The notes beneath the pieces were generated by a model. The model searched no databases and was not told the origin of the DNA. It saw only the letters and a program-made list of their open reading frames with translations. A program made the position numbers and the translations under genes. From Halobaculum magnesiiphilum (lineage in GTDB: Archaea; Halobacteriota; Halobacteria; Halobacteriales; Haloferacaceae), in assembly GCF_019823105.1 (NCBI RefSeq), contig NZ_CP081958.1, positions 2,108,001 through 2,172,000 of the forward strand: a stretch of DNA of 64,000 bases, read 5' to 3'. Each line of letters opens with the position of its first letter. Positions within the stretch are counted from its first letter, which is position 1. Shown piece after piece: positions 29,083 to 36,975 of this stretch.

Positions 29083-29315
29083 CGGTCGCACTTCGCCACC
29101 GGCGCGAGAGACGGCGATCGGCTGATCCGGAGGGCGATCGCGAGGCCGGACGACTTCTACTGATCGAAGAGATCGTCGAGGTTGGCCGCAAGCGAGCAGC
29201 AAGGTGAACTCGAAGTATTTCTATTCCGTTGAAAGTGGGTCCTCTCCCACGGCAATCGGATATATTCGTCTTTACCTGGCTACAAAGAATTAACCCTGTC
29301 CGATCGATGTACTGG
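29083..29315. other. 233-nt gap upstream of the S-layer paralogue promoter
   Basis: Nothing convincing is coded here. Its right end carries the core promoter of the S-layer paralogue: AATTAAC (29288-29294) about 26 nt before the expected transcription start. A second AT-rich element, GGATATATTC (29258-29267), lies 26 nt further upstream. Confidence 0.4.
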
Positions 29316-29426
29316 GTACCCCTATCAGATGACGCTCTCGCGTATTCCTCGCAACCGGCACAGGAACTGCGTCGAGATCCGGACGAATCGCGGTGAAACC
29401 ACGTCGCAGTACGACTTCGATAGCTC
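29316..29426 (+). promoter_or_regulatory. 111-nt 5' leader of the S-layer paralogue, with uORF
   Basis: From the predicted start at GTACCCCT (29316) to the ATG (29427) is 111 nt. The leader shares ordered blocks with the leader of the downstream S-layer gene: GTACCCCTA at the start, TATTCCTCGC (29343), and GCAGTACGACT (29406) exactly 21 nt before the ATG. It contains an ATG at 29329 opening a 33-codon frame whose TGA (29428-29430) overlaps the S-layer start as ATGA. H. salinarum csg mRNA is known for a long leader of similar size, in contrast to most leaderless haloarchaeal mRNAs. Confidence 0.55.
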
Positions 29427-29430
29427 ATGA
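29329..29430 (+). CDS. possible upstream ORF (33 codons) overlapping the S-layer paralogue start
   Basis: The frame reads MTLSRIPRNRHRNC and onward to YDFDSS, then TGA overlapping the ATG at 29427. It begins 13 nt after the predicted transcription start. Translation is not shown by sequence alone; it could couple or regulate the downstream start. Confidence 0.3.
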   Translation: MTLSRIPRNRHRNCVEIRTNRGETTSQYDFDSS

Positions 29431-31010
29431 CAGACCCAACTCTCAGAACCCGTGCATTGCTCTTGGCCGCGGTGGTGGTGTTCAGCGTCTTCGCTGGCAC
29501 TGCCGCCGCGGGAACTGCAGCCGGGGCTCCCACCGCTTCAGCGGGAACCCTCAGTGACGTACCTCCCGTCCGAGACCCCGGATCGACGGGCGCGTCCGTT
29601 CAGGTGAGTACGCACACCGACAGCCCGCATCGGCCCACAACGCTCGTCCAAAGCGACGGCGACAGCGAGGTCAACCTCTCGGAGGGTTCCATCGAGGTTC
29701 CACGAGGCGGGATCGCGACGTTCACCGTGCGGCTGAACGACTCCGGTAGCTCCGCGACGGTCGTCATCGGCAACGAGAGCGAGGACGGCTATCAGGCCAA
29801 CGTCTCGGTCACCGACGCCAACGACGACGGGGAAGTTACCTTCGCGTTCAACACCTACACGGCGGGCAACACCTCGGCCGGTACCGTCGTCCGGTTGGTC
29901 GGCGACAGCGAATCCGACCGGATCACGTTCGACAGCACTGAGAGCCAGACCGGGTTGAATTCCCTCCTCGACACCGGCGACTACCTCGTCGCGGTCGGGA
30001 CGAACGACGACCCCGCCGCCGTTCTCGAAACGCCGGACTTCGTCGGGGCGCTGTTCGTCGCTGAGCGTTCGGACCCGTCACAAACGCTCTGGCGGACGAC
30101 GCAGGACACGCTCTCGGACGTTCGGGAGGCTAGCGACAACGAGACCCGCTCTGCGGTGACGAGCGTCGGCGACGCCATCGTGAACGAACGACTGACGCGG
30201 ACCGACACGCTGGCGTTCACACCCAACGATTCGAACAGCGACGTGCTCGTCACCGAGCTCTCCGTGCCAGGGCTGTCCGGAATGCTCGGCACAGTCAGCG
30301 GCGGTGAGGTCACGGACGAGTTCACTGCAGCCATCCGGTCGAACAACTCCTCCGATGCCCCGTTTCGTGTCGTCCTTGCGGAGCAGAATCCGGGGCTGAA
30401 CCGGGAGCCCGTTACGCTCGACCTCGGCGAGACGCTCTCTGCAGGGACGGGGATCGACGACGCGCTCACGGTCGTCTACGCCGGCGGGGACACGTTCTAC
30501 GTGTTCGTGGACTACGACGCCGTGGCCGCCAGCACGGTCGACGGAACGGATTCCGCCTTCGAGGACGGCGACGAGATCGCCGTCAACGGTACCTTGCAGG
30601 ACGCGCGCCTGCTCGACATCGATCCGAACGAGACGGATGCCTCGGAGGGTGCATCCCGGTATCCGACCGCTTCGGCGACCTTCACGCTCGAAGCGGCCGA
30701 CGGTGAGTTCGATGTCAACGAGGACGACCTCGTGACGACGACGGCCGGCGAGAACGCGACGATCACCGGAACGACGAACGTCGCGCCGGGGACGGAGTTG
30801 ACGGTCGTCATTCGCTCGGGCGAAGAAGTTCAAGCGGCGTTCCTCGAGAGCCAGACAGTCACCGTCGGTAGTGACGGGACGTTCACGGCATCGTTCAATT
30901 TGAGCGCGCAAGCTCCCGGAGATACGTTCGAAGCGGAGGTCACGCAGGGACCCTTCACGACGGCGTCCGAGGGGGTGATCGTCGAGGAGAACGCGACGGA
31001 GGCATCGTAA
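29427..31010 (+). CDS. S-layer glycoprotein paralogue without C-terminal anchor
   Basis: The 527-residue protein has a haloarchaeal surface-glycoprotein signal peptide (TRALLLAAVVVFSVFAGT, the TIGR04207 type) and then aligns with roughly residues 410-840 of the full S-layer protein encoded next: LSEGSIEVPRGGIATF, EDGYQANVSV, VTFAFNTYTAG, SLLDTGDYLVAV, TNVAPGTELTVV. It lacks the first ~370 residues (Ig-like domains) and also the Thr-rich stalk and PGF-CTERM tail, ending GVIVEENATEAS. About a dozen N-x-S/T sequons are present. It may be secreted freely, or sit in the S-layer by protein contact. Codon use is more GC-biased than in the major S-layer gene, suggesting lower expression. Confidence 0.85.
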   Translation: MTDPTLRTRALLLAAVVVFSVFAGTAAAGTAAGAPTASAGTLSDVPPVRDPGSTGASVQVSTHTDSPHRPTTLVQSDGDSEVNLSEGSIEVPRGGIATFTVRLNDSGSSATVVIGNESEDGYQANVSVTDANDDGEVTFAFNTYTAGNTSAGTVVRLVGDSESDRITFDSTESQTGLNSLLDTGDYLVAVGTNDDPAAVLETPDFVGALFVAERSDPSQTLWRTTQDTLSDVREASDNETRSAVTSVGDAIVNERLTRTDTLAFTPNDSNSDVLVTELSVPGLSGMLGTVSGGEVTDEFTAAIRSNNSSDAPFRVVLAEQNPGLNREPVTLDLGETLSAGTGIDDALTVVYAGGDTFYVFVDYDAVAASTVDGTDSAFEDGDEIAVNGTLQDARLLDIDPNETDASEGASRYPTASATFTLEAADGEFDVNEDDLVTTTAGENATITGTTNVAPGTELTVVIRSGEEVQAAFLESQTVTVGSDGTFTASFNLSAQAPGDTFEAEVTQGPFTTASEGVIVEENATEAS

Positions 31011-31370
31011 CAGCAATCAACCTGATTACGTGAGGACCTACTCACAGGCTCTCGTTGACGTGGCGCGATCGAGATGCTGAAACTGCGCACTACTTAGAGA
31101 ATGTCTCGCACTCGCGTACGTGGATTTGTTCGCTTGGAGGCATCTTCGAGAGGCGAACCGTTCTCGACGGACGTGAGCGATACTTGGCTCGATACGATCC
31201 GCCTTCGTCCGGGACGCGCGCGAGCCGAACCCGACCCAAATCCTCCGCGGCGCCGTGGCACCTCCGCCCACGATCCTCCACAAAGTACTTATTCGCGGTT
31301 CGGGCGAGAACCCCCGACACGCCCGAATTCTGGTGTGTGAAGCGTTGACGCGCCCCCGGATTTACCACAA
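31011..31370. other. 360-nt gap between the two S-layer genes
   Basis: Short frames on both strands here have no credible start or composition, and no remnant of a PGF-CTERM tail follows the stop of the upstream paralogue. I see nothing coded. Confidence 0.5.
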
Positions 31371-31373
31371 GAC

Positions 31374-31382
31374 ATTTATAAG
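31374..31382 (+). promoter_or_regulatory. TATA box of the major S-layer gene
   Basis: ATTTATAAG is the strongest TATA element in the window. It is centred about 26 nt before GTACCCCT (31403), the predicted transcription start. The stretch between (GTCCGAT ... GTA) is shared with the paralogue's promoter. Confidence 0.75.
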
Positions 31383-31402
31383 GTCCGATGTTGGTAACGA
31401 CC

Positions 31403-31520
31403 GTACCCCTACCCATGGTGACAGCAGATAGTATCCCTCGCCGAGTCCGCTTCGCGGGCGTTCTGGAGCAGGCGTGGGCGAACGGTGTTGTCGCCGCTTG
31501 CAGTGCGACTACAGCAAACC
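31403..31520 (+). promoter_or_regulatory. 118-nt 5' leader of the major S-layer gene, with uORF
   Basis: The leader runs from GTACCCCT (31403) to the ATG at 31521. It repeats the blocks of the paralogue leader in the same order and spacing: TATCCCTCGC (31432), GCAGTGCGACT (31500), with the last again exactly 21 nt before the ATG. An ATG at 31415 opens a 39-codon frame ending at TAA 31532-31534, just inside the S-layer gene. Confidence 0.6.
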
Positions 31521-31534
31521 ATGACAGAAACTAA
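31415..31534 (+). CDS. possible upstream ORF (39 codons) overlapping the S-layer start
   Basis: The frame starts MVTADSIPRRVRFAG and ends NHDRN. Only the IPR near its start matches the uORF of the paralogue, and the two uORFs end in different frames relative to their S-layer genes, so the RNA may matter more than the peptide. Confidence 0.3.
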   Translation: MVTADSIPRRVRFAGVLEQAWANGVVAACSATTANHDRN

Positions 31535-34274
31535 CAACAAGATCCGCGCGCTGTTCCTGACAGCGCTGATGGTGTTCAGCGTCTTCGCTGGCACTGTCGC
31601 GTTTACAGGGACGGCTGCTGCGGCTAATGCTACACTCTCGGGCGTTGATTCGAGTGTGCAAGCAGGCAACGACATTACGTTCGATGCTTCAGCCGCGAAT
31701 GCGGACAACATTACGGTATGGATCGATGAAAATGAGGACAATGCCCTGAACTCGTCGGAGGTCAACGACACGTTCACTGGGGCATCCGTAACTGACGGCA
31801 CCCTGACTGTTCCGTCGGACCTTCCTGAGGGAGACTACGTTCTCGCCGCGGCTGAGAACACTAGCTCCCCCACCACGGCCGACGATACATTCACGTTCAC
31901 GGTAGACAACTCGGGGCCGTCGGTCAACAGCGTTGTCCACTACGACAATGACACGTCCTCCGGCGAGGACGGCGAGCTTGAGATCGCGTTCAGCGAGAAT
32001 ATCAGCTCGGGCACCATCACGCTCTACGATGAGGATGGTTCCGTCGTTGACACCCCCTACTCCGTCAGCGGCAACATGAACAACGGCCAGTTCCTCGTCG
32101 ATGTTGCTGGCGATGTCAACCCGCGTGTTGATGTCGTCAACATCGACGTTGAGGACTCCGCCGGTAACGCGATCTCTGACAACTTCAGTGTCACGTTCGC
32201 GTCCACGACGATCAAGAACGTCACCAACAACGACGCGACCGCGTTCGAGGGTTCGACCGTCGCTGTCGTCGACAGCACCGGTCTCGACAGCTCCGTTGAA
32301 GTCACGGGTCCCAACGACTTCTTCTTCAGCGGAACGACCGGCACCAACAGCCAGGTCTACACCTTCGACACGGGCGACCGTGACCTGGGTGACTACAACG
32401 TTACCTTCTCGTCCGGCCCTGACCAGATCCTGACGCTGCGGAACCTCGGTCTGGACGCCTCGGTTGACGAGGAGAACATCACGGTCGAGGAGGCCCTGAC
32501 GGGCGAGATCAGCGCCAACAACGGCAACCGCGACGTTGACGTTGATGTCCTCGACTCCGACGACGATGTCGTCGCCGAGGACACCGTCACGCTCGACGGC
32601 TCCGGTAACGGCGCCTTCGACGCCGGTACGCTCGAAGACACGGGCGATTACACGGTCGAGGTCACGGACGTTGCGACTGGCGTCACCGTGACGGCCGGTA
32701 ACGTCACCGTCAACGAGGCTGAGGAAGGCGAGGCCGCGCTCAGCGAGGGCACGGTCACTGTCACGCAGGGTGACAACGCCCAGTTCACCGTCGAGTTCTC
32801 CGGTGGCGCCACCGAGGGCACGGTCCTCATCGGCGACATCGAAGAGGACGGATACCAGGCCAACGTCACCGTCACTGAGGACAGTGACGACGACCAGGTC
32901 ACCTTCACGTTCAACACCTACACTGCCGGCGGTGCCGGGACGACCGTGTCCCTTGCTGGCGACAGCGTGGGCACTGACGACGAGGTTACCCTGACCAACG
33001 ACGGTGACGCAGACTACGAGCAGCTCTCGGATATCCTCGACACTGGCGACTACATCGTCAGTACGAGCACGGGCGACGCGGTCGCGACGGCCGACAGCCC
33101 CGACGAGGTCGGTACGCTCATCATCGAGCAGCGTGAGGCGCCGAGCCAGCAGCTCTGGCGCACGAGCGACACCACGCTCGAAGCTGTCGCTGATGCAATC
33201 GACGACGAGGACGAGGACGAGGTTGCGGCCATCACCTCGGCCGTCGAGAACGACCAGGTCACGCAGACTGACACGGTCGCCATCGACCCCGACGGCTCGA
33301 TGGACGACATCTTGGTCCACCAGGTCACTGCGCCCGGTCTCGAGGGTCTCCTCGACGATGTGAGCGCGGACGGCGACTCCACGACGGAGGCGCTGTACCA
33401 GGCTACGCAGGAGACCAACGACTACGGCCAGCCCGCGGTTGAGATCCTCTTCGAGGAGACCAACCCCGGCTCGAACGCCGAAGCGACCTCGCTCAACGTG
33501 AGCACGCTCACCGCGAGCGAGGCCACCAGCGCACTGACGGTCGTGTACGACGACAGCTCGTCGAACTACTACGTCTTCGTTGACACGGCCGCCCTCGAGG
33601 ATGCTGGCTTCGAGGACGGTGACAACGTTGAGACCGACATCAACGTCCAGAGCGACCGCCTGCTCGACATCGACGATGATGTCGACGCAGAGGGAGCTGA
33701 AGACGAGTACCAGACCGCTGCGGCCAACTTCAGCGTCGAAGAGGCCGACGGTAGCTTCGACGTGAACGAGGACGACGAGGTTGAGGCAGTTGCCGGCAAC
33801 GCGTCCATCACGGGTACGACGAACGTCGCGCCCGGGACGGAGTTCACGGTGCGTGTCCAGTCGACCGAGGAGACGCAGCCGCGCTTCATCGAGACGCAGA
33901 CCGTGACCGTCCAGGCGGACGGCACGTTCGAGGCGACCTTCAACCTGAACGACAACGCTGCCGGTGACACCTTCACCGCTAGCGTCCGTCAGGCTGGCTT
34001 CTCCGCGTCGGCTGACGGTGTCCTCGTCGAGAGCGTCTCGACGCCGACGGCCACGCCGGACGACGGCACGCCGACGGACACCGCGACACCGGACGACGGT
34101 ACGCCGACGGCCACCGCGACGCCTGACGAGGGCACGCCGACGGCCACCGCGACGCCTGACGAGGGCACGCCGACGGCGACCCAGACGTCCACGTCGACGC
34201 CCGGCTTCGGTGCCGTGCTGGCAGTCATCGCCCTCATCGGCGCTGCGCTGCTGGCGGTCCGCCGCGACAACTAA
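31521..34274 (+). CDS. S-layer glycoprotein with PGF-CTERM anchor
   Basis: The 917-residue protein is the cell-surface S-layer glycoprotein. It has a surface-glycoprotein signal peptide (IRALFLTALMVFSVFAGT, mature from about ANATLSG), Ig-like domains to about residue 370, the S-layer core (about 390-840), a Thr/Pro-rich stalk of repeats and a PGF-CTERM tail: STPGFGAVLAVIALIG, hydrophobic helix, RRDN. About sixteen N-x-S/T sequons (for example NAT just after the signal, NIT, NVT, NIS) are potential AglB glycosylation sites, and the Thr stalk fits O-glycosylation. Archaeosortase A cleaves PGF-CTERM proteins and permits lipid attachment; artA is 950 nt downstream. Codon bias is that of a very highly expressed gene. 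Confidence 0.95.
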   Translation: MTETNNKIRALFLTALMVFSVFAGTVAFTGTAAAANATLSGVDSSVQAGNDITFDASAANADNITVWIDENEDNALNSSEVNDTFTGASVTDGTLTVPSDLPEGDYVLAAAENTSSPTTADDTFTFTVDNSGPSVNSVVHYDNDTSSGEDGELEIAFSENISSGTITLYDEDGSVVDTPYSVSGNMNNGQFLVDVAGDVNPRVDVVNIDVEDSAGNAISDNFSVTFASTTIKNVTNNDATAFEGSTVAVVDSTGLDSSVEVTGPNDFFFSGTTGTNSQVYTFDTGDRDLGDYNVTFSSGPDQILTLRNLGLDASVDEENITVEEALTGEISANNGNRDVDVDVLDSDDDVVAEDTVTLDGSGNGAFDAGTLEDTGDYTVEVTDVATGVTVTAGNVTVNEAEEGEAALSEGTVTVTQGDNAQFTVEFSGGATEGTVLIGDIEEDGYQANVTVTEDSDDDQVTFTFNTYTAGGAGTTVSLAGDSVGTDDEVTLTNDGDADYEQLSDILDTGDYIVSTSTGDAVATADSPDEVGTLIIEQREAPSQQLWRTSDTTLEAVADAIDDEDEDEVAAITSAVENDQVTQTDTVAIDPDGSMDDILVHQVTAPGLEGLLDDVSADGDSTTEALYQATQETNDYGQPAVEILFEETNPGSNAEATSLNVSTLTASEATSALTVVYDDSSSNYYVFVDTAALEDAGFEDGDNVETDINVQSDRLLDIDDDVDAEGAEDEYQTAAANFSVEEADGSFDVNEDDEVEAVAGNASITGTTNVAPGTEFTVRVQSTEETQPRFIETQTVTVQADGTFEATFNLNDNAAGDTFTASVRQAGFSASADGVLVESVSTPTATPDDGTPTDTATPDDGTPTATATPDEGTPTATATPDEGTPTATQTSTSTPGFGAVLAVIALIGAALLAVRRDN
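34051..34176 (+). repeat. 33-bp tandem repeats encoding the S-layer stalk
   Basis: A partial 27-bp unit (34051-34077) is followed by three 33-bp units (34078-34110, 34111-34143, 34144-34176). The last two are identical. Each unit encodes T-A-T-P-D-(D/E)-G-T-P-T type sequence, the probable O-glycosylated spacer between the S-layer core and the membrane anchor. Confidence 0.85.
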
Positions 34275-34450: not shown

Positions 34451-34723
34451 ATGGCGACCGACGGCTCCCCGGAAGAAACGACCGTCAGCGATACGGGAAT
34501 GGTAACCATCCCGGCATCACTTCGGCGACGGCTCGACATCGAGGCGGGGGATAAACTCCGGTGGAACGTCGACGAGGAGGGGCAGCTCTCGATCGAGGTC
34601 GTTCGACAACGCTACGGCGCGTTTGAGGACGACGACCGGAAGGCCGACATGGGCGGTGACAGTCTGGAAACGCACGACGCCTCCGGATACGAGGTGGACT
34701 CCGCGTTCGCGGAGGACGCCTGA
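34451..34723 (+). CDS. SpoVT-AbrB family antitoxin
   Basis: The 90-residue protein has an AbrB DNA-binding fold: VSDTGMVTIPASLRRRLDIEAGDKLRW. The C-terminal half is acidic and probably folds on the toxin. It overlaps the following PIN gene by one base (TGATG), the usual antitoxin-first order, and is expected to autoregulate the pair. Confidence 0.82.
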   Translation: MATDGSPEETTVSDTGMVTIPASLRRRLDIEAGDKLRWNVDEEGQLSIEVVRQRYGAFEDDDRKADMGGDSLETHDASGYEVDSAFAEDA

Positions 34724-35154
34724 TGCCCCACGCAGTCGTCGATTCCAACGTTCTCATCGACTACAAGGACACGAGTGCGGACGACCGCCACGAGCGTGCC
34801 GAAGCGATCGTCCTCGGTATCGATCGAGGCGAACTCCCGACTACTCGGGTGACGAACTACGTCCTGTTGGAGTCGCTGAACTGGATTCACGAACGGCGAC
34901 GACACGATATCGCGGTCGACCTCCGGAACCGACTCTCCGCTTCGGCGGGATTCGAATTGGTTCATTCCGCACAGGCGGATTTCCACCGGGCAGTCGAGTT
35001 GTTCGAGACATACGACGGGATCGCGTTCGGTGATGCGACGCTCGTCGCGTACATGGAGCGGGTGGACATCGACTACCTGTATTCGTTCGACGATGACTTC
35101 GACGCGATCGAGTGGATCACTCGACTGGACACACCGAACGACCCACGCCAGTAG
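34723..35154 (+). CDS. PIN-domain ribonuclease toxin (VapC-like)
   Basis: The 143-residue protein has the PIN acidic residues: Asp in VVDSNVLIDY, Glu in YVLLESLNWI, and Asp in IAFGDATLVAYM and YSFDDDFDAI. VapC-type PIN enzymes cleave tRNA or rRNA; the target here is unknown. It is paired with the AbrB antitoxin in front and lies between the S-layer gene and artA. Confidence 0.85.
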   Translation: MPHAVVDSNVLIDYKDTSADDRHERAEAIVLGIDRGELPTTRVTNYVLLESLNWIHERRRHDIAVDLRNRLSASAGFELVHSAQADFHRAVELFETYDGIAFGDATLVAYMERVDIDYLYSFDDDFDAIEWITRLDTPNDPRQ

Positions 35155-35191
35155 CTGCGCCTCGGCACCCACGACACACGAGACGACAAGG

Positions 35192-35199
35192 GCTTTACC
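35192..35199 (+). promoter_or_regulatory. TATA box of artA
   Basis: GCTTTACC is centred 28 nt before the ATG at 35223, so artA has its own leaderless promoter and is not dependent on the toxin operon. Confidence 0.6.
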
Positions 35200-35222
35200 C
35201 GACAGCGCCGATCCACGAACGA

Positions 35223-36221
35223 ATGGCGAGCATCTACACCGACCTGCTGGGGTGGGTGGTGATCGCGACGTTCCTCGCGGGCGCGGGCGTCGAGTACGTC
35301 CGACGCAACCGCGTCGGCGACGACGCGGGCGCGCTGGCGACCCTCCGACGCCGCCTCGACGCCTCCGAGACCCCGCCCGAGCGCACGCTCGCGACCGCGG
35401 GGTGGGTGCTGTTCGCCGCCTTCTGGCTCGCGCTGTTCCCGCACTTCGCGTTCACGCAGAAGAGCTACGTCGAGGGGGTGCTCTCGCTGCTCGCGGTCCC
35501 CGCGTGTCTGTACGCCGGGTGGCTGCTGTGGAACGGCCGCGACTCGCTGCTGGTGCTCTCGCGGGCGGTAGCCGCGATGGGAGTCGTCTACTTCCCGTTC
35601 GAGTCGATCGAGGTGCTCAAGCGGACGCTGATCCTCGTCGTCACCGGACAGACCGGCTGGGCGATGGCGCAGTTCGGCTACGAGCCCGCGCTGGTCGAGG
35701 GGCCGATCCTGGGGTATCAGAATGCGTATCGGTTCGTCACGGCCGACGGACACGGCCTCCTGTTCGAGGTCGTCCTCGCGTGCACCGGGCTGGGGAGCAT
35801 GGCGATCTTCGCGGGGCTCATCGCCGCGGTGCGTGCCCCCCTCGGCCGGAAGCTGCGCGCGCTGGCCGTCTCCATCCCGATCATCTGGCTGCTCAACATC
35901 GCCCGGACCACGTTCATCGGGATCACCTTCGGCAACCAGTATCTCCAGCTGTTCGTCGACGAGGTGCTGTTCCTGTTCGGCTCCTCGGACCCGTACATGG
36001 TGTCGTTTTTCCTCTCAGACCGGGTGATATCGCAGGTGCTCGCCGTCGTCGCGCTCGTCGGGATCACCTACCTCGTCGTTCGCGAACTCCCCGAACTCGT
36101 CACCGTGATCGAGGACGTGCTGTACATGATCACGAAGGAGGAGTACGACCTGCTGGAGTCGCTGGACCTGCCGCGAGAGCCAGTTCGGGCGGATGGCGGT
36201 CGAGACGTTGACGATCGGTAG
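35223..36221 (+). CDS. artA: archaeosortase A
   Basis: The 332-residue polytopic protein is the exosortase-like transpeptidase that processes PGF-CTERM proteins. The catalytic residues are visible as Cys187 (VVLACTGLGSM), Arg228 (LLNIARTTF) and Arg267 (LSDRVIS). The spacings C-41-R-39-R are identical to those of the characterised Haloferax volcanii enzyme (C173, R214, R253). The C-terminal cytoplasmic tail of about 50 residues ends DVDDR. It lies 950 nt downstream of its main predicted substrate, the S-layer glycoprotein; BtuF in this window is a second substrate. Confidence 0.95.
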   Translation: MASIYTDLLGWVVIATFLAGAGVEYVRRNRVGDDAGALATLRRRLDASETPPERTLATAGWVLFAAFWLALFPHFAFTQKSYVEGVLSLLAVPACLYAGWLLWNGRDSLLVLSRAVAAMGVVYFPFESIEVLKRTLILVVTGQTGWAMAQFGYEPALVEGPILGYQNAYRFVTADGHGLLFEVVLACTGLGSMAIFAGLIAAVRAPLGRKLRALAVSIPIIWLLNIARTTFIGITFGNQYLQLFVDEVLFLFGSSDPYMVSFFLSDRVISQVLAVVALVGITYLVVRELPELVTVIEDVLYMITKEEYDLLESLDLPREPVRADGGRDVDDR

Positions 36222-36274: not shown

Positions 36275-36550
36275 ATGTCCACGTCTGTAAAGGTCGATGA
36301 CGAGACGAAATCACGGCTCGAACGCCTCCAAGCGGAAGTTCGCCTGCAGACCGGACGGAACGTGACGCAGCAAGAACTGCTCGCACGACTCGTCGACGGC
36401 GCCGTCGAATCCAAGGCGGAGCTCATCGAGTCGTTCCGTCCCGAGCACGTTCCGTTGTCCGACGACGACCGAGCGGCCTTCCACGACGGAATGATCGCTT
36501 CGGGTGTGACAACGACCGAGGAGGACATCGACGAGGTACTGTACGAGTGA
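36275..36550 (+). CDS. VapB-like antitoxin
   Basis: The 91-residue protein begins TSVKVDDETKSRLERLQAEV, a ribbon-helix-helix-like DNA-binding N-terminus, and has an acidic C-terminus for toxin binding. It overlaps the next PIN gene by 4 nt (GTGA). Confidence 0.75.
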   Translation: MSTSVKVDDETKSRLERLQAEVRLQTGRNVTQQELLARLVDGAVESKAELIESFRPEHVPLSDDDRAAFHDGMIASGVTTTEEDIDEVLYE

Positions 36551-36975
36551 GCGTGTTCGTCGATACCGGTGTGCTGTACGCCCACCACGACGTGGACGCC
36601 GAGCGGCACGACCGCGCGGTCGAGTTGATTGATGCGGTCCTCGATGGCACCTACGGAACGGCGTACACGAGTGACTACGTGCTCGACGAGACTGTAACGT
36701 TGACCAGGCGGCGTACCGGATCCACGGAGGCGGCTGTGACCGTCGGCCGTCGTGTTCTCGGTGAGGACCCGTTCCCGGAGGTGTTCGAACTCATCACGCT
36801 CGAGAGGGACGCGCTCGCCGACGGGTGGGCGACCTTCAGGGAGTTTTCTGACCACGACCTCAGCTTCACCGACGCCGTCTCGCTCTCGCAGTGTGACTCG
36901 CACGGAATCGACTCGATCATGAGCTTCGATTCCGATTTCGACGGATTGATCGACCGAACCCATCTCCCTCCGTAG
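36547..36975 (+). CDS. PIN-domain ribonuclease toxin (VapC-like)
   Basis: The 142-residue protein starts at GTG 36547 and shows the PIN residues in SVFVDTGVLYAHHD, YVLDETVTL, LSFTDAVSLSQ and MSFDSDFDGL. It forms a module with the preceding antitoxin and is unrelated in detail to the PIN toxin at 34.7 kb, so the two pairs are separate acquisitions flanking artA. Confidence 0.83.
   Translation: MSVFVDTGVLYAHHDVDAERHDRAVELIDAVLDGTYGTAYTSDYVLDETVTLTRRRTGSTEAAVTVGRRVLGEDPFPEVFELITLERDALADGWATFREFSDHDLSFTDAVSLSQCDSHGIDSIMSFDSDFDGLIDRTHLPP

Follow-up and report, generated by a model that had tools for sequence, protein, structure and literature searches.

Within the window (the whole stretch of 64,000 nucleotides of Halobaculum magnesiiphilum DNA that was analysed), two S-layer genes lie on the forward strand:

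29427..31010, + strand: shorter S-layer paralogue (527 aa; without PGF-CTERM; NCBIfam and Pfam matches)
31521..34274, + strand: S-layer glycoprotein gene (917 aa; signal peptide, DUF7827, BGTF domain and PGF-CTERM; NCBIfam and Pfam matches)

Judged by these matches, both genes are related to the ArtA-dependent S-layer glycoprotein; the downstream one is complete and the upstream one shorter. The upstream paralogue has an orthologue in another genome (G293), 71% identical. Ahead of the PGF-CTERM anchor of the downstream protein, a Thr/Pro-rich stretch is encoded by a 33-bp tandem repeat present in 4.3 copies (34039-34181). About 0.8 kb 3' of the S-layer gene lies a gene for archaeosortase A (35112-36218, + strand; TIGR04125, E 5e-98), an enzyme family that acts for PGF-CTERM proteins, and PIN-domain proteins are encoded on both sides of it (34723-35151 and 36547-36972, + strand).

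The original prediction held that four ordered blocks are common to the regions upstream of both start codons, and all four were found at the claimed positions and with the claimed spacing. GTCCGAT lies at 29298-29304 before the upstream gene and at 31383-31389 before the downstream one, GTACCCCTA begins at 29316 and 31403, and the third block reads TATTCCTCGC (29343-29352) and TATCCCTCGC (31432-31441), respectively. The last block, GCAGTACGACT or GCAGTGCGACT, begins exactly 21 nt 5' of the ATG in both genes, and the leaders, counted from the G, are indeed 111 and 118 nt long. This last block (GCAGTRCGACT) sits in the linker, outside the paired core of the leader, and its conservation is largely limited to this genus and neighbouring ones. 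The alignment score of the two upstream regions was 79, compared with a mean of 49.7 (sd 6.4) for dinucleotide shuffles, 1 of 1000 of which scored as high. Since 4 of 389 other window segments reached the global alignment score of the pair, the similarity between the two upstream regions alone is only moderately significant, and our case rests on the fact that the leader of the downstream gene is conserved throughout the class.

Gene starts were located in 292 genomes of the class by means of the surface-glycoprotein signal peptide (TIGR04207), and upstream regions were taken from 120 loci. Most of them share a TATA box followed by TACCCCTACCC, and a large subset has the core GGUGRCA...AGUA...GAA...UGUCGCC. 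RNAalifold found no structure in a MAFFT alignment of the full set of 95 leaders, owing to the mixture of leader types and the long gaps in it, a problem that was overcome by hand sorting of the leader types together with a model. The 46 leaders with the core were aligned by MAFFT and formed the training set of a covariance model, designated R1, and the window leader (31404-31503) belonged to this set. Within the window, the next-best R1 match after 31404-31503 has an E value of 0.32. The promoter and leader of the downstream gene comprise the following features:

31375..31380, + strand: TATA box (TTTATA) of the S-layer gene promoter, from its sequence and the TTTA spacing in the leader set
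31404..31503, + strand: covariance-model match, S-layer leader RNA (80.5 bits, E 3e-21)
31404..31416, + strand: predicted mRNA 5' tail UACCCCUACCCAU, single-stranded, near-invariant in both alignments (unpaired probability 0.78 for nt 1-12)
31417..31429, + strand: long stem, 5' strand (GGUGACAGCAGAU), pairing with 31483-31495, with covariation
31430..31433, + strand: AGUA, 5' strand of the candidate bulged-G (loop E-like) internal loop, invariant in the aligned leaders
31435..31442, + strand: inner stem, 5' strand (CCCUCGCC), pairing with 31471-31478 with one mismatch
31471..31478, + strand: inner stem, 3' strand (GGCGUGGG), pairing with 31435-31442 with one mismatch
31480..31482, + strand: GAA, 3' strand of the candidate bulged-G internal loop, opposite AGUA in 76/87 leaders
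31483..31495, + strand: long stem, 3' strand (CGGUGUUGUCGCC), with covariation; the same stem appears in the minimum-energy fold of the window leader
31496..31520, + strand: linker to the start codon, which holds GCAGTGCGACT and is without a Shine-Dalgarno (SD) sequence

The core of the leader is one long imperfect hairpin, situated about 13-92 nt 3' of the predicted transcription start and made up of a stem of 12 pairs plus G.A, an internal loop, an inner stem whose innermost three pairs covary across the leader set, and a variable tip. The single-stranded 5' tail UACCCCUACCC precedes the hairpin, which is followed by an A/C-rich linker and then AUG ACA; the last 20 nt of the 87 leaders are 47% A and 30% C, and an SD-like motif at -18 to -4 was found in none of the 87. 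TTTA stands 27-30 nt 5' of TACCCC in 82 of 87 leaders, and the predicted transcription start at TACCCC fits this TATA-box spacing. The mean predicted unpaired probability was 0.78 for the tail, 0.37 for the stem region and 0.70 for the start region. When folded singly, the window leaders were no better than shuffles (downstream leader z -0.21, its core -1.70; upstream leader z +0.50).

The hairpin is interrupted by a 6x5 internal loop, GAGUAY/YGAAA, in which AGUA is invariant in 86/86 aligned leaders (46/46 in the training set and 40/40 in a held-out set, the hits of which came from R1, a model that itself favours AGUA). With GAA facing AGUA and a one-nucleotide asymmetry within a helix, this loop has the consensus of the bulged-G (loop E/sarcin-ricin) motif, as a sequence match and not a structure. 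The motif is known from rRNA, 5S rRNA and several riboswitches; the leader shares with it the AGUA opposite GAA, the asymmetry and the flanking G.A, and differs in setting, which here is an archaeal mRNA leader. K-turn and bulge-helix-bulge were set aside, the loop being a 6x5 internal loop with AGUA/GAA.

That the stems of aligned haloarchaeal surface-glycoprotein upstream regions should covary had been put forward as a check of the original prediction, and they do so in the training set, in held-out leaders and among pairs of relatives. In the training set (46 leaders), 80.2% of the pair cells were paired, compared with 32-60% in slid registers, and 65 double changes were counted versus 26.9 in shuffles. 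The held-out set consisted of 40 R1 hits outside the model and one further leader (41 in total), and 40 held-out leaders were aligned with MAFFT in a structure-blind manner, that is, without the model. Though these hits came from R1, which favours the training-set pairs as well, 82.4% of their cells were paired versus 26-61% in slid registers (registers +/-3 exceeding the others), changes on both sides were seen at 13 of 15 pairs, and not one of the five covariation measures was reached by any of 500 shuffles. Given that shuffles leave relatedness in place, 20 disjoint nearest-relative pairs were examined, which contained 12 double-compensated changes versus 0-5 in slid registers. Covarying base pairs of this kind in related leaders are the mark of a conserved structured mRNA leader.

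When whole genomes were searched with R1, 143 of 292 haloarchaeal genomes proved to carry the element, spread over 48 of 77 genera and nine family labels, with 1-4 copies each, while about half of the 292 genomes were without a hit. All 41 inspected held-out hits lie 5' of an ORF beginning with the surface-glycoprotein signal peptide (mostly judged by eye; 10 of 10 tested exceed the TIGR04207 cut-off), a constant position 5' of one gene type that likewise characterises a conserved structured mRNA leader. When 84,980 genomes, one for each species, were scanned for the exact pattern, 51 contigs were hit, every one of them haloarchaeal, including Haloarcula, Halorussus, Halobaculum, Halolamina, Haladaptatus and Halogeometricum. 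The exact-pattern scan of viral contigs gave no hit, and capture of the leader by viruses was rejected on this ground. Among Rfam 15 families, the window matched one tRNA only, with nothing up to E 5 in 29250-31700, and the element was not described in the open-licence papers searched. Absence of the leader from the S-layer genes of other species had been named as the result that would speak against the prediction; conserved as the leader is across the class, the claim withstood this test.

The leader of the upstream paralogue is as follows:

29317..29426, + strand: degenerate leader copy of the upstream paralogue (shared blocks; AGUA lost or replaced; R1 finds nothing)

In the window search with R1, the leader at 29427 gave no covariance-model match at E<10, and in the G293 orthologue of this gene GTACCCCTA is gone too. 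We read the upstream gene's leader as a probable decayed copy of the S-layer leader RNA. The view that a conserved regulatory leader RNA was duplicated with the gene is borne out in part: the upstream blocks are common to both genes, and a conserved structured RNA with compensatory changes precedes 31521 and is found class-wide 5' of S-layer genes, but the copy at 29427 is degenerate.

The leader is placed between TATA box and start codon, its stems covary and, in the cases checked, it is confined to surface-glycoprotein genes. We therefore propose, with a probability of roughly 60%, that 31404-31520 is a class-wide structured cis-acting RNA of S-layer mRNAs that sets translation by growth state; its structure is well supported, while its function is inferred. 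Most likely the leader exerts cis-acting control of S-layer mRNA translation, and perhaps of stability. Acting within the mRNA, it would hold the start region open, and the bulged-G loop may serve as a platform for a trans factor, either a protein or the ribosome, by which translation of the very abundant S-layer protein would be set by growth state. Translational control of csg exists in one species, since Lange et al. listed Hfx. volcanii csg among 14 transcripts that are translationally repressed in stationary phase, with a repression factor of 1.1 to 3.9 (PMC3225822). Because the Hfx. volcanii csg leader is divergent, these data may not transfer. A more specific version, in which the leader is a class-wide riboregulator whose bulged-G hairpin binds a dedicated factor and shuts off S-layer translation at growth stop, is offered tentatively. 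Against our best explanation stand the half of the genomes without a hit, the divergent Hbt. and Hfx. leaders, the lone fold at shuffle level and the leaderless norm of Hfx. volcanii. Babski et al. found 72% of the transcripts of this species to be without a leader, with leaderless ones more frequent among genes of high coverage, and regarded structured leaders as untypical of haloarchaea (PMC4983044).

The structure might instead mainly stabilise the S-layer mRNA against exonucleases or endonucleases, with no regulatory role in translation. A large stem close to the 5' end could slow decay, and in Haloquadratum walsbyi no gene is more highly expressed than csg (PMC5496347), but a single-stranded, near-invariant 5' tail would be a poor shield from a 5' exonuclease, the invariant internal loop exceeds the needs of a plain stem, and translational repression of csg has been measured in one species. 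We favour an mRNA-level role in translation and rank a stability role next, as a rather unlikely sole explanation. The blocks could also be signals at the DNA level, belonging to the promoter or the initially transcribed sequence, with the structure incidental. At the predicted start, the tail block ACCCCTACC is retained even in stemless leaders and may well be such a promoter-linked signal; for the stem this reading is disfavoured, given that double compensated changes are far rarer at slid registers and that the core lies well downstream of the predicted start, and as an account of the whole leader it is improbable.

A conserved structured leader confined to one gene type would also suit a metabolite riboswitch whose expression platform hides the start codon or terminates transcription. 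The present leader has no SD to hide, a start region that is predicted to be open, and just one hairpin, whose tip varies greatly and in which only the internal loop is invariant, which makes a riboswitch very improbable. Control of the gene by a small ORF that begins with the 5'-proximal AUG (31415) appears the least probable of these readings. Though an ATG occurs within the first 16 nt in 65 of 87 leaders, it is absent in 22, the frames occur in each of the three phases with respect to the gene, their lengths range from 4 to more than 40 codons, only 37 of them extend over the start, and the AUG overlaps the stem base. With frame phase and length unrelated among leaders, a conserved uORF was rejected. 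Complementarity of the tail, AUGACAGGA, GCGCUGAUG and the loop strand to 16S rRNA was at chance level.

If the riboregulator reading is true, a structured translational-control leader would operate in a group thought to depend on leaderless mRNAs. A covarying leader, maintained across families of the class, precedes the gene of a protein that is often the most abundant one, and a defined RNA together with exact mutations is now available to test the control of csg translation. The leader may also serve as an expression leader in haloarchaeal vectors. Archaeal and bacterial ribosomal-protein leaders are similarly structured, sit on abundant-protein genes and are thought to bind a protein (PMC7247131); they belong to different genes, and the S-layer leader has no match in Rfam.

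The element may have been overlooked because it has diverged in the csg genes of the two usual laboratory-type organisms. Judged by protein starts, we take L063 to be the Hbt. salinarum-type csg and L022/L025 to be the Hfx. volcanii-type csg. The csg mRNA leader of Halobacterium salinarum is reportedly about 111 nt long according to classical work, a length on an S-layer gene like that in the window, and the L063 leader is 112 nt when counted from CACCCC, whereas those of L022/L025 are 78-79 nt. All of them retain a tail and a hairpin, a long one in L063, and are without the bulged-G loop, scoring 10.7-14.4 bits with R1, which is the noise level; L063, with 10.7 bits, differs from the window leader in having no AGUA/GAA.

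Synonymous sites are constrained at the starts of surface-glycoprotein genes (31521-31610 in the window and related loci). Thr at codon 2 is ACA in 86/86 (5% in gene bodies) and Gly at codon 3 is GGA in 21/23 (9% in gene bodies), while in the ALM motif Ala is GCG in 67/71 (22%) and Leu is CTG in 61/71 (25%). Because signal-peptide genes that lack the leader RNA show a strong preference for ACA and GCG too, the coding-start constraint has a separate cause; its reading as an extension of the leader RNA was rejected, the constraint being about equally strong in those genes.

A third surface-glycoprotein gene in the same genome (L010) has a longer leader (1341-1448 of L010) with a weak R1 match of 30.8 bits. 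Longer variants also precede other surface-glycoprotein genes of the same genus (L029 and L065), and AGUC replaces AGUA in L010 and L029. Leaders of the family label f4 (L017, L027, L032, L033, L057, L073, L093 and L113) have the tail TACCCCTACCCG in common, as well as a stretch resembling GAATCGCACGCTAACC ahead of the linker, and perhaps represent a second leader class.
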